From the NCBI GenBank assembly GCA_016839955.1, contig JAEOTI010000324.1, positions 1-5,080 on the forward strand: 5,080 bases of DNA. Reading direction: 5' to 3'. The first letter of the stretch is position 1; each line of letters starts with the position of its first letter. Below the pieces are notes generated by a model. The model was not told the DNA's origin, did not search any database, and saw nothing but the letters and a program-made list of their open reading frames with translations. Origin of the DNA: Candidatus Hodarchaeota archaeon (GTDB taxonomy: Archaea; Asgardarchaeota; Heimdallarchaeia; Hodarchaeales; YT1-057). Below, one piece after another: positions 104-4,568 of this stretch. Both the position numbers and the translations under genes were made by a program.

Positions 104-1036
104 CTAATTTCTAGATTGAAGTTCTTTCGAAGTCATTAATTTTTCAGGAAGATTGGAAGGATCAAATGATAAAGAATGGAAAGCTTGATCCCAAATCATT
201 TGTTGACATCTTGTTTCTTCTAATTCAACAAGCAATCTACATCGTTCTGTATGGACACAATTAATACATTCTTCGGAATGAAAAAATGAGGGATTAAATC
301 CTTTAGTAGTAATATATTTTGATATTAATTGTATAACCTCGTTTATTGTGGTTGGAGAATATTCGACTGAATGAATGCTTTCTGGAGTAAGAATCCGAAC
401 ATTTTGAATAGAAACTGAGTAAAAAGTCTGAATGACCATTGCTGTTAAGATTGCTTGTGTTTTAGCGACTTGGAGAAACGTATCCGAGAGTTTGAGTTCC
501 CAGACTGCAGCCTGATTGTTGTGAATCGCATAAAGATCTGGTTTGACAACTATTTGGTTTTCAAAAAGACTTATTCGTTCCTCAAAATGAGGGGTGCCCC
601 CAAAAACTTGATTTACAATCTCTTGGGGAGTAAAGGATTCCTCAGTGATTAAATTTTCAATAATCCATGTACCAAAGGTACAAAATAAGGCATAAAACTC
701 ATTATGAATTAGTCGAAGAAAATCTAAAGGAATGTCTTCCACTTGTTCTAAATTTTCGAAAACCAGATCTGCAGCTGTATCTAAATTTTGTGACAAAGTT
801 TCAGAAGAAACGTCTCCTCTATCCCAAATATCTTCTAACCAGAGATAGTTCCAACGATGGAAAGCTTTGTGTAAGAGTCGTCCTGTAAAAAGTTTCAAGT
901 TGGTCGGGGTGAGCCAATAATTATTAAGAAAGGCTGCATTAGGGCAGTAACTCATCCAACCAATGGTACTAGCCCAAAAAGGTGATGAATTATAGAGTTG
1001 GGGGAAAATTGATTCAAAGAGTGAAATGTCAGTCAT
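104..1036 (-). CDS. Cas4/Dna2-like PD-(D/E)XK nuclease with 4-Cys Fe-S cluster
   Basis: This is a RecB-family (Cas4-like) nuclease, probably a DNA exonuclease or end-processing enzyme in the cytoplasm. Numbered from the ATG at 1036 (310 aa), the sequence shows Cys31 in a 'SYCPNAAFL' context, where Cas4 has its first cluster cysteine. Next come the GxxxH motif (Gly52, His56), 'VKPDL' with Asp167, and 'WELK' with Glu180 and Lys182, which together form the D...ExK active site. Gln194 fits the following Q motif, although the usual tyrosine is replaced. A C-terminal C-x2-C-x5-C (Cys257, 260, 266) completes a likely [4Fe-4S] site. The protein is longer than typical Cas4 (about 170-220 aa) because of a roughly 110-residue helical insert between the His and Asp motifs and a C-terminal tail of about 45 residues. 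A TTG at 1045 is in frame but is a poorer start. No cas genes or repeats are nearby, so a CRISPR role is not supported. Dna2-, AddB- or Cas4-type repair nucleases are the alternatives. Confidence 0.8.
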   Translation of the reverse strand: MTDISLFESIFPQLYNSSPFWASTIGWMSYCPNAAFLNNYWLTPTNLKLFTGRLLHKAFHRWNYLWLEDIWDRGDVSSETLSQNLDTAADLVFENLEQVEDIPLDFLRLIHNEFYALFCTFGTWIIENLITEESFTPQEIVNQVFGGTPHFEERISLFENQIVVKPDLYAIHNNQAAVWELKLSDTFLQVAKTQAILTAMVIQTFYSVSIQNVRILTPESIHSVEYSPTTINEVIQLISKYITTKGFNPSFFHSEECINCVHTERCRLLVELEETRCQQMIWDQAFHSLSFDPSNLPEKLMTSKELQSRN

Positions 1037-1045
1037 GGCTATCAA

Positions 1046-1072
1046 TAATTATATAGATTGATGATTTTAATA
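1046..1072 (-). promoter_or_regulatory. Possible TATA region for the Cas4-like nuclease gene
   Basis: Reading the minus strand upstream of the ATG at 1036, there are two TATA-like stretches: TATTAAAAT, centred about 31 bases upstream, and CTATATAAT, centred about 16 bases upstream. The first has archaeal spacing for a nearly leaderless transcript starting just before the ATG. The second is the better sequence match but is too close to the start. There is no Shine-Dalgarno sequence before the ATG, which fits a leaderless first gene. Which box is used cannot be decided from sequence. Confidence 0.3.
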
Positions 1073-1090
1073 CTCCGAATGGCATTATTA

Positions 1091-1106
1091 GAAAGCTTTA
1101 TATTAT
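1091..1106 (+). promoter_or_regulatory. Archaeal BRE/TATA promoter of the secreted-protein gene
   Basis: GAAAGC followed by TTTATATTA is a good match to an archaeal BRE plus TATA box. Its centre at about 1101 predicts transcription starting near 1126, some 10 bases before the ATG at 1136. There is no Shine-Dalgarno sequence in between, so the mRNA would be leaderless or short-leadered. The box also argues against the longer open frame from 1058, because a start at 1058 would lie upstream of the promoter. Confidence 0.5.
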
Positions 1107-1135
1107 ATGCCAGAATTAATAAAATAGTGATTGTA

Positions 1136-1819
1136 ATGAAGCAGTCTAGTTTGTTTTGCGTTCTGGTCTTATTTATCGTCATAATAAATCCTTCTTCAGT
1201 CACTAGTAGTACCAAAAATGATTTACGCTATCAAGTGCAATTGGGAGATTCTGTAACTTATATTGTAACAAAGAACCACATTTTTGGATCGAACGATATG
1301 TGGACATATTATAATACTACAGTCACTGAGGGGACACAGTTTGAAGTAGAAGTTACAGAGCTAAAAATCATTAAAAGAAAAGGAGAGCCATCTATTATAG
1401 ATTCTGTCATTGGGCACTTCTATTTTGAGAATAGTAGTATTGAACGATATTTATCAAATTATATTCCTAAGCCTCCTAATCATTCTAGTAGGGGAGTATT
1501 AATACGGACTTTAGAAAATAAACTTAGTTGGCAAGAGTATTATGTTGATAATTATACAAATACTAATTATCGGCGCTGGATTGAGGGGGAGATTCTGTAT
1601 GAGAGGCATCTCAGTAATATGAAGATTGTGGGGTATAATCTTCGAACAGGTTGGTTAGTATATTATTATAGTGAGAAGTTTGATACTACTTATGAAGTAC
1701 AAGCGCTTCAAATACCTGATAATGGAAAAACCTTTGATATTACTTTAATTTCAGTTGTTTCGAGTTTAAGTTTTGGAATAATAGTTGCTCAAGTCTTGTC
1801 ATCCAGGAAAAAATCTTAG
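1136..1819 (+). CDS. Secreted, C-terminally membrane-anchored surface protein (unknown family)
   Basis: I do not recognise a named family. With the start at 1136 the product is 227 aa. It begins with a classical signal peptide: Lys2, then a hydrophobic core at about residues 6-17 (LFCVLVLFIVII), with cleavage likely around residues 20-25 in 'SVTSS'. The middle 170 residues are polar and aromatic-rich, with alternating patterns typical of beta-sheet, and contain four N-glycosylation sequons (NTT, NSS, NHS, NYT). One hydrophobic segment at about residues 200-221 is followed by 'SSRKKS', a short positively charged cytoplasmic end. This is type I topology: ectodomain outside, one C-terminal membrane anchor. 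A longer in-frame start at 1058 would place about 26 hydrophobic residues before the signal peptide and lies upstream of the TATA box, so I rejected it. From memory, signal-plus-anchor ectodomain proteins with a 'TGWL' motif near the end are common in Asgard genomes. The function is unknown, with cell-surface or envelope roles possible. Confidence 0.75.
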   Translation: MKQSSLFCVLVLFIVIINPSSVTSSTKNDLRYQVQLGDSVTYIVTKNHIFGSNDMWTYYNTTVTEGTQFEVEVTELKIIKRKGEPSIIDSVIGHFYFENSSIERYLSNYIPKPPNHSSRGVLIRTLENKLSWQEYYVDNYTNTNYRRWIEGEILYERHLSNMKIVGYNLRTGWLVYYYSEKFDTTYEVQALQIPDNGKTFDITLISVVSSLSFGIIVAQVLSSRKKS

Positions 1820-1826
1820 TTTTGAA

Positions 1827-2192
1827 TTAAGACTTGTGGATAGGGGGAAATTCGTGTTGAAAGGCCTTACTAATGATATCAATACAACTTTCATGTTGAG
1901 GACATCGGAACCCTTGCATTATTCGAGCTATCTCAAGTAGAGGCATATCCTGTTGTAACAGATTTGAAGCAAATCGTCCTATTATTTCTAGCAGACTGCC
2001 TACACAACTCCCACTCTTGAATTTTGAAAAAAAGAAGAAGATTTCACGGGGACTACCTTGATCATAAGAGATTGTGATATAAATAGGCCCACATCCCACC
2101 GATATCTTACAGGTAATACTTGGAAGGTTGTGGGGGCGTTGATAGGGTTCTGGAAGACTTGTGTCTGATATGTTAGGGGTAGTAGATTCCAT
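1827..2192 (-). CDS. Stand-alone TSCPD-domain protein (RNR NrdJ C-terminal-like)
   Basis: This 121-aa protein consists almost entirely of one TSCPD domain, the small cysteine-rich module found at the C terminus of B12-dependent (class II) ribonucleotide reductases and also as free-standing proteins. The family pattern is visible in order: 'RPHNLPSITCKI' (residues 19-30), the 'GCGPIYITI' strand with Cys34, 'KSGSC' with Cys63, the helix 'LLEIIGRFAS', 'GFRCP' with Cys97, and 'SCIDIISKAF' with Cys103, which corresponds to the 'SCPDAI' signature. Cys34, 63, 97 and 103 are the likely four metal (zinc) ligands; Cys28 is an extra cysteine. The N-terminal 18 residues are Ser/Pro-rich and probably disordered. 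No reductase catalytic subunit is in the window, so this could be a trans-acting RNR accessory protein or a relative with another role. The ATG at 2192 has a GAGG four bases upstream on the minus strand. It ends 7 bp from the convergent upstream gene. Confidence 0.75.
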   Translation of the reverse strand: MESTTPNISDTSLPEPYQRPHNLPSITCKISVGCGPIYITISYDQGSPREIFFFFSKFKSGSCVGSLLEIIGRFASNLLQQDMPLLEIARIMQGFRCPQHESCIDIISKAFQHEFPPIHKS

Positions 2193-2287: not shown

Positions 2288-4135
2288 GTGACAAATTTCA
2301 TACATACTGGTGATCGATCAGTGTATGTTGACTCGACTCAACTAAAACAGACTGGACCAGCACTTCTACCGTTAATAACGACATTAATTTGTTTTCTATT
2401 AGGGTTAAAAACAATCTATATTGCTATATTGACCGTGGGAGTAGCTATTCCTGTAGGATTATACAGTCGAAGGTTATTTGAATCAGAAGAATCATCGTAT
2501 ACTATGCGAGAACCAGATGTTACTTTTTGGATTCTGCAAGAAGCACCTAATGTTGTTGTCACGAAAGCTCGAAACGAAATCGCTCGTGTTATGGGTTATA
2601 AAAAAATAACCCGTCGTCCACAACGAGAATTAGTCTATAGCCTTCAGACAGGGATCAGTAATTCGCTGTTAACAATGGGAATTGCTGATAACATGTATGG
2701 GACGTTTATAGTTGTCCGGTTATTAGATCGCAGTCATCAGAATGATCCGCACTTGATTGAGGATGCGAAAAAACATTTTCAGATATTTTTTGATATGATA
2801 AGTCAGAAAATTCCGGGGTTAGTCTTAGAAGATCCAACACAGGATGAATTACGAGCATTAACTGGAATACCAAATTTAAGTATCCCAAAGGATGATTCAC
2901 CAACAATTTCTCAAGAAAAAACATCAATTTCACCAATAAATTCACGGAATGAGATTATTTCAAAGAATAAACCTGTTAAGACACCTTCCCTAGACACATT
3001 TGTTAAAAAAATGACTCCTGTAACTGTTCTAGAAGAAAGTAGAAGTACAATTGAAACAGATCTTGTCAGAGAATCACCATTGGATCAGTTTATTTCTATG
3101 ATGGATTCTTCTACAATTAATACTAATGAATCACTTACCTTAGAAGAAGACAATTTACCTTGTAGATTTGTTTTAGATGGTAGTAATGTCGCAAAACATA
3201 ATATGAATGTGACAGGAATAGCCTGCCTAGAAAATCTAATTATAGTAAGAAAGAAATTTTTAAAATTAGGACAAGTAAAAATTATTGCGAAAAAGAATCT
3301 TCGACAATATATTGATAGACCAGAAGAATTTGATGCGATGGTAGAAAAGAGAGAGATTAACGAAGCTCCTTATAGTCGGGATGAGAAGGAAGGAGAATTG
3401 GACGACGAGACAATAGTGAGATATGCGTATGAAAATGATTATTATGTTATTTCAAATGATCTATACAAGAAAGAAGACATAAATAGCGATTTTTTACGTG
3501 ATGAGACCACTCAAGCATGGTTACGAACTCATCGGATACCATATTTTATTTATGAAAAAGAATGTATTTTCTATGATTTACAAATACAGGAACCAGGGTT
3601 ATTAACAGACTTTAATAAACTGATAACTTATGAAAAAGACACACGAAAAGAGAAAATCGCTGTAATAGATGCTTATGATGTAATAAGAAATAATAGTGGG
3701 TATAACATCTCTCAGTTAACAAAATTGCAAAAGGATCTCGAAGAAAGAGAAAGAATGCAAACTATTGTCATAATGAATCCCAAACTGCGATATAAGAAAG
3801 ACCTGAAAGAAGAATACGAACGAATGAAAGTAGATGGATTGTTCTATGAACGACCTGCAGGGACAATGGGAGAGTTCTTTGTTATTCGATTGGCTCAACA
3901 ATTGGGAGGATGGGTGGTCTCTAATAGTCAGTTCAGTTCATTTTGGAAGGAATTGGAAGAAGATTTTGGTGATTTGAAAGTTTCGTTGAAAAATTGGTTA
4001 GAAAAGCGACAGGTGAGGTATCAAATCATTGGAGATCAAATTACATACATTCCAACTGATTTTAATCCGTTCTTTAATGTCAAAAGGAAAGAAAAAGGGA
4101 AAACGAAAGTAAAAAAAAGATGTACAACCCTTTGA
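2288..4135 (+). CDS. Membrane-anchored protein with tandem Zc3h12a/Regnase-like NYN RNase domains
   Basis: This 615-aa protein is probably a membrane-tethered endoribonuclease. Two hydrophobic segments at residues 24-40 and 43-59, followed by 'SRR', form a membrane hairpin with the bulk of the protein in the cytosol. Residues 70-197 are an alpha/beta domain I do not recognise. Residues 198-290 are a Ser/Thr/Pro-rich linker. Residues 291-428 form an NYN (PIN-fold) domain: 'VLDGSNVA' (Asp297), 'LDDETIVRYAY' (Asp372, Asp373) and 'VISNDLY' (Asp391). These match the acidic residues of Regnase-1/Zc3h12a, including the 'DD..I...AY....vSND.Y' block. Residues 455-590 repeat the fold ('VIDAYDVI', 'GEFFVIRLAQ', 'VVSNSQF'), but the DD is reduced to Gly-Glu and the last Asp is Ser547, so this copy may be inactive. 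The end is Lys/Arg-rich ('KRKEKGKTKVKKR'), suiting RNA contact. The start is GTG at 2288, directly after an in-frame TAA, without a Shine-Dalgarno sequence; the next ATG (residue 73) would lose the membrane segments. A small gene follows 39 bp downstream. Confidence 0.82.
   Translation: MTNFIHTGDRSVYVDSTQLKQTGPALLPLITTLICFLLGLKTIYIAILTVGVAIPVGLYSRRLFESEESSYTMREPDVTFWILQEAPNVVVTKARNEIARVMGYKKITRRPQRELVYSLQTGISNSLLTMGIADNMYGTFIVVRLLDRSHQNDPHLIEDAKKHFQIFFDMISQKIPGLVLEDPTQDELRALTGIPNLSIPKDDSPTISQEKTSISPINSRNEIISKNKPVKTPSLDTFVKKMTPVTVLEESRSTIETDLVRESPLDQFISMMDSSTINTNESLTLEEDNLPCRFVLDGSNVAKHNMNVTGIACLENLIIVRKKFLKLGQVKIIAKKNLRQYIDRPEEFDAMVEKREINEAPYSRDEKEGELDDETIVRYAYENDYYVISNDLYKKEDINSDFLRDETTQAWLRTHRIPYFIYEKECIFYDLQIQEPGLLTDFNKLITYEKDTRKEKIAVIDAYDVIRNNSGYNISQLTKLQKDLEERERMQTIVIMNPKLRYKKDLKEEYERMKVDGLFYERPAGTMGEFFVIRLAQQLGGWVVSNSQFSSFWKELEEDFGDLKVSLKNWLEKRQVRYQIIGDQITYIPTDFNPFFNVKRKEKGKTKVKKRCTTL
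2357..2464 (+). other. Transmembrane hairpin of the NYN protein
   Basis: Residues 24-59 of the NYN protein hold two uncharged hydrophobic stretches (LLPLITTLICFLLGL and IYIAILTVGVAIPVGLY) separated by only 'KT', then 'SRR'. The short turn and the positive charges after the second stretch favour a re-entering hairpin with both protein ends in the cytoplasm. This is an unaided hydropathy reading. Confidence 0.7.
3158..3571 (+). other. NYN domain 1 (predicted catalytic Regnase-like RNase)
   Basis: Residues 291-428. The four acidic positions expected for the metal site of a PIN/NYN nuclease are present: Asp297 in 'VLDGSNVA', Asp372 and Asp373 in 'LDDETIV', and Asp391 in 'SNDLY'. The helix 'FLRDETTQAWLRTHRIPYFI' corresponds to the segment after the SND motif in Zc3h12a proteins. 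Confidence 0.8.
3650..4057 (+). other. NYN domain 2 (degenerate copy)
   Basis: Residues 455-590 repeat the order of domain 1: a first strand 'IAVIDAYDVI' (Asp461, Asp464), a helix starting at Glu529 with 'FFVIRLAQQLGG', the strand 'WVVSNSQF', and an end resembling the 'RL..Y...D.F.P' region of Regnase-1. Compared with domain 1, the Asp-Asp pair is Gly528-Glu529 and the SND aspartate is Ser547. It is best read as a diverged internal duplication, possibly structural or RNA-binding. Confidence 0.6.
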
Positions 4136-4164: not shown

Positions 4165-4228
4165 AGGAGTTATCATGTCTGAAAAAACAACACAATATGA
4201 TTCTCGCAACGATGGCCGCTATCCGTAA
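4165..4228 (+). other. Shine-Dalgarno plus 17-codon frame overlapping the small gene's 5' end
   Basis: AGGAG at 4165-4169 sits five bases before an ATG at 4175, the best ribosome binding site in the window. The frame opened there reads MSEKTTQYDSRNDGRYP and stops at TAA 4226-4228, in a different frame from the following gene (frame of 4197). A +1 shift anywhere between the ATG and the stop joins it to that gene. It is either the true N terminus with an assembly or natural frameshift, or a short leader peptide. Confidence 0.5.
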
Positions 4229-4568
4229 AGATCCTTCCATGAATGGATTAACTCATACAGCAAAGAAAGTCTCGGCAAAACGAGTTGTAGAATCTCTTAT
4301 GAAAATTAAAATCCTTTTTAATATTTTTGAAAATGTACCAAAAGAACTTTCACAAATTATAGAAACATATCAGGAAAGTTTGATACAAAATATTGAGATA
4401 GATGATGAGATTGAACCGGACAAAGTCTGGGACTTGATTTCAAATATCCTGAATCAACTCCATCCGTTAATTGTACAATTTGAAAAATTAGAATTACTGC
4501 CAAATAATGGAAATGGAAAAGATCAAAAAAAAGATCAAAAAGATGATAATACTTCTTTGTTACTATAA
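4197..4568 (+). CDS. Small acidic helical protein following the NYN gene (unknown)
   Basis: I do not recognise this protein. The open frame from 4197 gives 123 aa: a basic first part ('THTAKKVSAKRVVESLMKIK', residues 19-38), two or three amphipathic helices to about residue 100, an acidic turn 'IEIDDEIEPDKVWD' (66-79), and a polar low-complexity tail ('GKDQKKDQKDD', 107-117). No signal peptide or membrane segment is credible. The start is uncertain: no ribosome binding site precedes the ATGs at 4197, 4212 or 4239, whereas a strong one precedes the ATG at 4175 in another frame. The likely real N terminus is therefore MSEKTTQYDS... joined after a one-base shift. The frame is also open again beyond the stop (4569-4721). 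It lies 39-61 bp behind the NYN ribonuclease gene on the same strand, so co-transcription and a partner role are plausible inferences. It may also be a decaying gene. Confidence 0.6.
   Translation: MILATMAAIRKDPSMNGLTHTAKKVSAKRVVESLMKIKILFNIFENVPKELSQIIETYQESLIQNIEIDDEIEPDKVWDLISNILNQLHPLIVQFEKLELLPNNGNGKDQKKDQKDDNTSLLL
4519..4546 (+). repeat. A-rich GATCAAAAA direct repeat and A8 run
   Basis: Two copies of an AAGATCAAAAA unit lie in tandem and encode KDQKKDQK in the tail of the small helical protein. The run of eight A at 4525-4532 is prone to polymerase or sequencing slippage and sits just before the stop at 4566. Confidence 0.5.

Follow-up and report, generated by a model that had tools for sequence, protein, structure and literature searches.

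Gene content of the window

The window, by which we mean the whole stretch of 5,080 nucleotides analysed, contains the following genes and, within the gene at 2288..4135, the following features:

104-1045, minus strand: Cas4-like PD-(D/E)XK protein, 313 aa (TIGR00372, E 6e-7, 29.5 bits, cut-off 65)
1058-1819, plus strand: probable surface protein (C-terminal hydrophobic stretch by eye)
1827-2192, minus strand: stand-alone TSCPD domain protein (PF12637, E 8e-15)
2288..4135, plus strand: whole gene under study, 615 aa, GTG start
2351..2467, plus strand: hydrophobic stretch, probably a transmembrane hairpin (aa 22-60; hydropathy, predicted topology)
2471..2872, plus strand: predicted cytosolic domain, probably folded (aa 62-195; matches no family above cut-off)
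2873..3157, plus strand: polar linker, probably disordered (aa 196-290; composition)
3158..3592, plus strand: NYN1, RNase_Zc3h12a, predicted catalytic (aa 291-435; D297, N300, D372, D373, D391; Pfam, motifs, alignment)
3650..4072, plus strand: NYN2, RNase_Zc3h12a, degenerate (aa 455-595; D461, R501, R522 kept; Pfam, alignment)
4073..4132, plus strand: basic tail, role putative (aa 596-615; composition)
4197-4568, plus strand: downstream gene, 123 aa, after a 61-base gap

The placement of the gene at 2288..4135 in the initial annotation was borne out: an in-frame stop lies immediately 5' of the GTG at 2288 and the frame ends at 4135, giving 615 aa. The GC content per codon position was 0.446/0.324/0.255, close to the values for the neighbouring Cas4-like gene, 0.443/0.347/0.271. 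The window was found to contain no tRNA and no Rfam family at gathering score.

Hydrophobic anchor, N-terminal domain, linker and tail

Hydropathy reached a maximum of 2.17 and exceeded 1.2 in 27 of the 28 19-residue segments starting at residues 19-46, which suits the membrane anchor originally proposed and fits two short transmembrane helices forming a hairpin at about aa 22-60. The pair R61-R62 directly follows the hydrophobic stretch, and both ends of the hairpin would lie in the cytosol. The next segment (aa 62-195) had been described as an unrecognised cytosolic domain, and in agreement with this description profile searches of Pfam and NCBIfam found nothing above cut-off; its single-sequence AF2 model contained strands, at low confidence (pLDDT 52). 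Serine or threonine accounted for 26 of the 95 residues of the linker (aa 196-290), and lysine or arginine for 9 of the 20 residues of the tail (aa 596-615), which from its composition is a possible candidate for RNA contact.

Two domains of the Zc3h12a family

The RNase_Zc3h12a model (PF11977) of Pfam matched two separate stretches of the protein, with E 6.7e-19 and 68.6 bits for the full length. When each copy was cut out alone, NYN1 was matched at aa 295-426 (48.5 bits, E 1e-12) and NYN2 at aa 456-589 (28.5 bits, E 1.4e-6), both exceeding the curated Pfam cut-off of 23 bits and agreeing with the two NYN domains first recognised at aa 291-428 and 455-590. With the limit set at E 10, each copy matched one further Pfam family, in each case below its cut-off: NYN1 matched DUF5615 (E 0.028), and NYN2 a glycosyl hydrolase domain (E 0.036). 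The nearest solved structures by sequence were ZC3H12A chains (3v32, E 0.0065, aa 294-395), followed by ZC3H12C and ZC3H12B; NYN2 alone matched no NYN structure among the solved structures at E up to 10.

NYN1 and NYN2 were 22% identical (BLASTP E 0.002 for this single comparison). Their Smith-Waterman score was 64, compared with a mean of 32.9 (sd 5.8) when the NYN2 half was shuffled, and none of 2000 shuffles reached 64. By these alignment scores the two copies are alike beyond chance, indicating an internal duplication. A single-sequence AF2 model of the tandem NYN region had a mean pLDDT of 35, too low to inform on a PIN-like fold or on contact between the copies.

NYN1 carries the motifs DGSN (297-300), DDETIV (372-377) and SNDLY (389-393). 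Alignment with ZC3H12A retained the columns DGSNVA, DD..IV..AYE and SND, and placed D297 and N300 (DGSN), D372 and D373 (DD) and D391 (SND) on conserved family positions. The full motif set claimed for the first NYN domain is thus present, including D297, D372, D373 and D391. When NYN2 was paired with NYN1, D461 corresponded to D297, G528 to D372, E529 to D373 and S547 to D391, and the DGSN of NYN1 to DAYD; in this reading of one sequence three of the four acidic positions of NYN2 are lost or changed and its acidic set is incomplete. Because NYN2 has G528, E529 and S547 at acidic positions, NYN1 and NYN2 are probably unequal nucleases. The initial annotation had described both as ribonuclease domains, which holds for the family membership of the two copies, but NYN2 is unlikely to be an equal nuclease.

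The counterparts of Regnase-1 R214 (R364 in NYN1, R522 in NYN2) and R183 (R339 and R501) were found in both copies, whereas W182 and K184 were retained in neither, the corresponding residues being L338/Q340 in NYN1 and L500/Y502 in NYN2. We take D244 of Regnase-1 to be the aspartate of SND. The conserved acidic residues of Regnase-1 include D225, D226 and D244, according to the available part of PMC4772114.

A predicted catalytic and a degenerate NYN domain in one chain

Head-to-tail pairing of the Regnase-1 PIN domain has been reported as required for activity, monomeric mutants having no significant activity, and a dead D226N/D244N partner rescues the K184A and R214A mutants (PMC4772114, in the sections available). 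Because this partner rescues K184A and R214A, the secondary PIN need not be catalytic and one cutting site suffices. From the residue pattern, and by analogy with Regnase-1, a complete NYN and a degenerate NYN in one chain would fit an asymmetric PIN pair made covalent. On balance we favour the reading that the protein is a membrane-tethered endoribonuclease in which one catalytic and one degenerate NYN of the same chain imitate the primary/secondary PIN pair of Regnase-1. The transmembrane hairpin would keep the protein tethered on the cytosolic side of the membrane and be followed by the family-less domain and the flexible linker. NYN1 would be the catalytic domain, cutting a putative RNA substrate via metal ions on D297, D372/D373 and D391. 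NYN2, a degenerate and likely structural copy, would pack on NYN1 as a non-catalytic 'secondary' partner and present its basic residues to the RNA.

Besides the missing W182 and K184, two points of the Regnase-1 literature weigh against the analogy: Rao and co-workers regarded the PIN dimer as a crystal artefact, as reported in PMC4772114, and the N-terminal domain of Regnase-1 is likewise described there, in the text available, as required for activity in vitro. Pfam found no N-terminal domain of the Regnase-1 type in the 615-aa protein. On the supporting side, Mn-dependent RNA cleavage has been demonstrated for another prokaryotic NYN protein (PMC11346440, available part).

The NYN family itself is already known; the architecture, joining a hydrophobic anchor, a family-less domain, a catalytic-looking NYN and a degenerate NYN, is new. 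NYN1 resembles Regnase-1/ZC3H12A, ZC3H12B and ZC3H12C in belonging to the same family (PF11977) and in its DGSN, DD and SND set. In Regnase-1 PIN pairing is reported between molecules, whereas here two NYN copies, one of them degenerate, lie in one chain; the protein also differs from the Regnase-1/ZC3H12 proteins in its hydrophobic anchor and in having another N-terminal domain. A search of the 615-aa protein with the Pfam models (E up to 1) revealed no zinc finger, which in ZC3H12 proteins proper accompanies the NYN domain. The CRISPR-associated NYN of Bacteroides fragilis, also a ribonuclease from a prokaryote, has conserved aspartates of which one was shown to be necessary, and is compared in its paper with VPA0982 and MARF1; unlike the protein analysed here, it occurs in a type III CRISPR context, and the available part of that paper mentions no membrane anchor (PMC11346440).

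Among 14 control genomes PF11977 was found in Methanocaldococcus jannaschii alone, and the methanogen orthologous group OG0001213 is annotated with the same family (PMC11915815, available text). Because PF11977 occurs in M. jannaschii and in a methanogen orthologous group, the description of the enzyme as eukaryote-like in the initial annotation is weakened; the family is no eukaryotic speciality. These archaeal proteins, compared with ours by description only, share its Pfam family. The source gives OG0001213 as having 0 transmembrane segments, unlike the probably anchored protein here, and assigns it to a gene cluster that also holds a nucleotide cyclase having more than one such segment (PMC11915815, as far as its available text goes). 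Searches of the open literature for Asgard with NYN domain, or for Zc3h12a with archaea and NYN, returned only PMC11915815, and none was found that joins Regnase with Asgard.

If the pairing is true, the asymmetric PIN dimer for which Regnase-1 needs two molecules would be built permanently into a single prokaryotic chain, with one site functional and the other worn out, and the protein would offer a simple system for probing the role of the second PIN. Membrane anchoring, if true, would be an unusual cellular placement for this RNase family. An archaeal host is plausible; if it were an Asgard archaeon in particular, which the results do not indicate, the gene would be relevant to the origin of the eukaryotic Regnase family.

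Alternative readings

The suggestion in the initial annotation that the enzyme surveys RNA or acts in defence at the membrane is a guess; turnover of tRNA or of mRNA is a further candidate role. The combination of a membrane anchor, a nuclease and a possible sensor domain in one protein would suit a defence or toxin-like effector, in which the anchor and the cytosolic domain would sense infection or stress and free NYN1 for broad RNA cutting. We consider this unlikely. The Cas4-like gene, 1.2 kb away on the opposite strand, points in this direction but scores 29.5 bits against an NCBIfam cut-off of 65, and the adjoining downstream gene resembles Csx1 weakly (E 0.004), over no more than model positions 48-87 of 267. 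Furthermore, no PADLOC model matched the 615-aa protein at E up to 1, the neighbouring genes lie on alternating strands and the window has no direct repeat of at least 16 bases in more than two copies. Term searches of the archaeal defence papers PMC12988326 and PMC11291487 found neither NYN nor PIN domain, and the terms Regnase, ribonuclease and RNase were likewise absent from PMC11291487.

It is distinctly unlikely that a single membrane anchor carries two NYN domains that each cut RNA independently. In favour of this reading, NYN1 and NYN2 both score above the Pfam cut-off, D461 is retained and E529 could replace an aspartate; against it, two of the four acids are replaced, by G528 and S547, and DAYD stands in place of DGSN. 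In the CRISPR-associated NYN, D13A alone abolished cleavage (PMC11346440, available part), and Regnase-1 bearing both D226N and D244N was wholly inactive (PMC4772114, available part).

Very doubtful, too, is a tRNA-directed nuclease, in which aa 62-195 would be a diverged Cgi121 (a KEOPS subunit) gripping the 3' CCA end of tRNA while NYN1 cuts. The Pfam model CGI-121 (PF08617) gave a weak match to aa 62-195 (13.0 bits, below the 25-bit cut-off), with an E value of 0.11 that is non-significant for a database of Pfam size; the match appeared only with the piece cut out, none being found in the whole protein at E up to 1 or in aa 1-288 at E up to 10. A profile made from four Cgi121 sequences scored 13.2 bits, above the best shuffle (9.9 bits; 3440 scored of 4000 made), but the shuffle test followed the choice of family, this home-made profile scored a lower 10.3 bits when run on the full-length sequence, and its hhalign probability was 9.6%. 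Cgi121 is expected to be helical, whereas the low-confidence AF2 model of the segment (pLDDT 52) shows strands. In Cgi121, tRNA is recruited through its CCA tail, which would suit such a nuclease, but in M. jannaschii Cgi121 replacing M60 by Glu abolished t6A modification, and in an alignment made by eye this Met pairs with an Arg here (PMC7718258, available part, for the tRNA recruitment and the mutant). Fainter still is the prospect of a membrane tRNA-cutter that would combine a KEOPS-derived Cgi121-like domain with a NYN pair (catalytic plus pseudo-enzyme) as an archaeal surveillance or shut-off system.

Membership of the family does not by itself demonstrate activity, and neither NYN might cut, the protein serving as a non-catalytic RNA-binding scaffold. 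NYN1, however, retains the family acidic positions while NYN2 changes three. This difference suggests that selection has maintained catalysis in NYN1 and makes a scaffold even less probable than a tRNA-directed nuclease.

Searches for relatives

In a protein search the whole protein retrieved only itself among the candidates listed (at least 7997 scored), and aa 286-430 only itself of 155 candidates. The whole protein matched 62 stretches in genome contigs and 6 in viral contigs, and NYN1 aligned to ZC3H12A matched 61 in viral contigs, with none confirmed in any of these searches. Phages and plasmids gave no tblastn match to the whole protein. When pieces were searched with the limit relaxed to E 10, the first 200 aa matched one plasmid record (E 4), and NYN1 matched two plasmid records (E 2 and E 7) and no phage. 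A DGSN-type pattern scan of the viral contigs yielded 56 loci, and none of the 54 to which PF11977 was applied (L056 and L057 left out) matched it; a second pattern yielded one viral locus, where three ORFs showed no NYN motif by eye. Most of these searches for relatives require words of five residues in common or an exact match to a pattern of eight, and can easily overlook distant kin. The lack of a relative in the searched collections would agree with an assembly chimera or a private pseudogene of one contig, but the 615-codon open frame, the codon-position GC like that of the Cas4-like neighbour and the sharp family motifs make this the least credible explanation of all.

Neighbouring genes

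By eye, the Cas4-like protein shows PD...ELK and C..C....C motifs. It matched 3 stretches in viral contigs, none confirmed, and nothing among plasmids; no repeat array was seen in the window. The probable surface protein at 1058-1819 weakly matched a choice-of-anchor S family, below cut-off (E 0.0023).

The TSCPD gene is separated from the gene at 2288-4135 by 95 bases and lies on the opposite strand. Among 11 candidates in a protein search its product retrieved itself and one relative (P0003, 71% identity over 68% of the query); these two proteins matched 46 stretches in genome contigs, none confirmed. Its best NCBIfam matches, below cut-off, were B12-dependent ribonucleotide reductases at late model positions, and its phage matches (E 0.003 to 0.008) were ribonucleotide reductases in 5 haloarchaeal virus records.

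The downstream gene at 4197-4568, whose start is tentative, is a possible operon partner of the gene at 2288-4135. Its matches to Csx1, which acts in type III CRISPR signalling (E 0.004 and 15 bits, over model positions 48-87 of 267), to RegB_T4 (E 0.052) and to a PHROG family (E 0.16) were too weak to be accepted. Within 4165-4230 on the plus strand, ahead of the ORF called from 4197, a GGAG precedes an ATG at 4175, from which the reading frame, judged by eye, runs for only some 17 codons.
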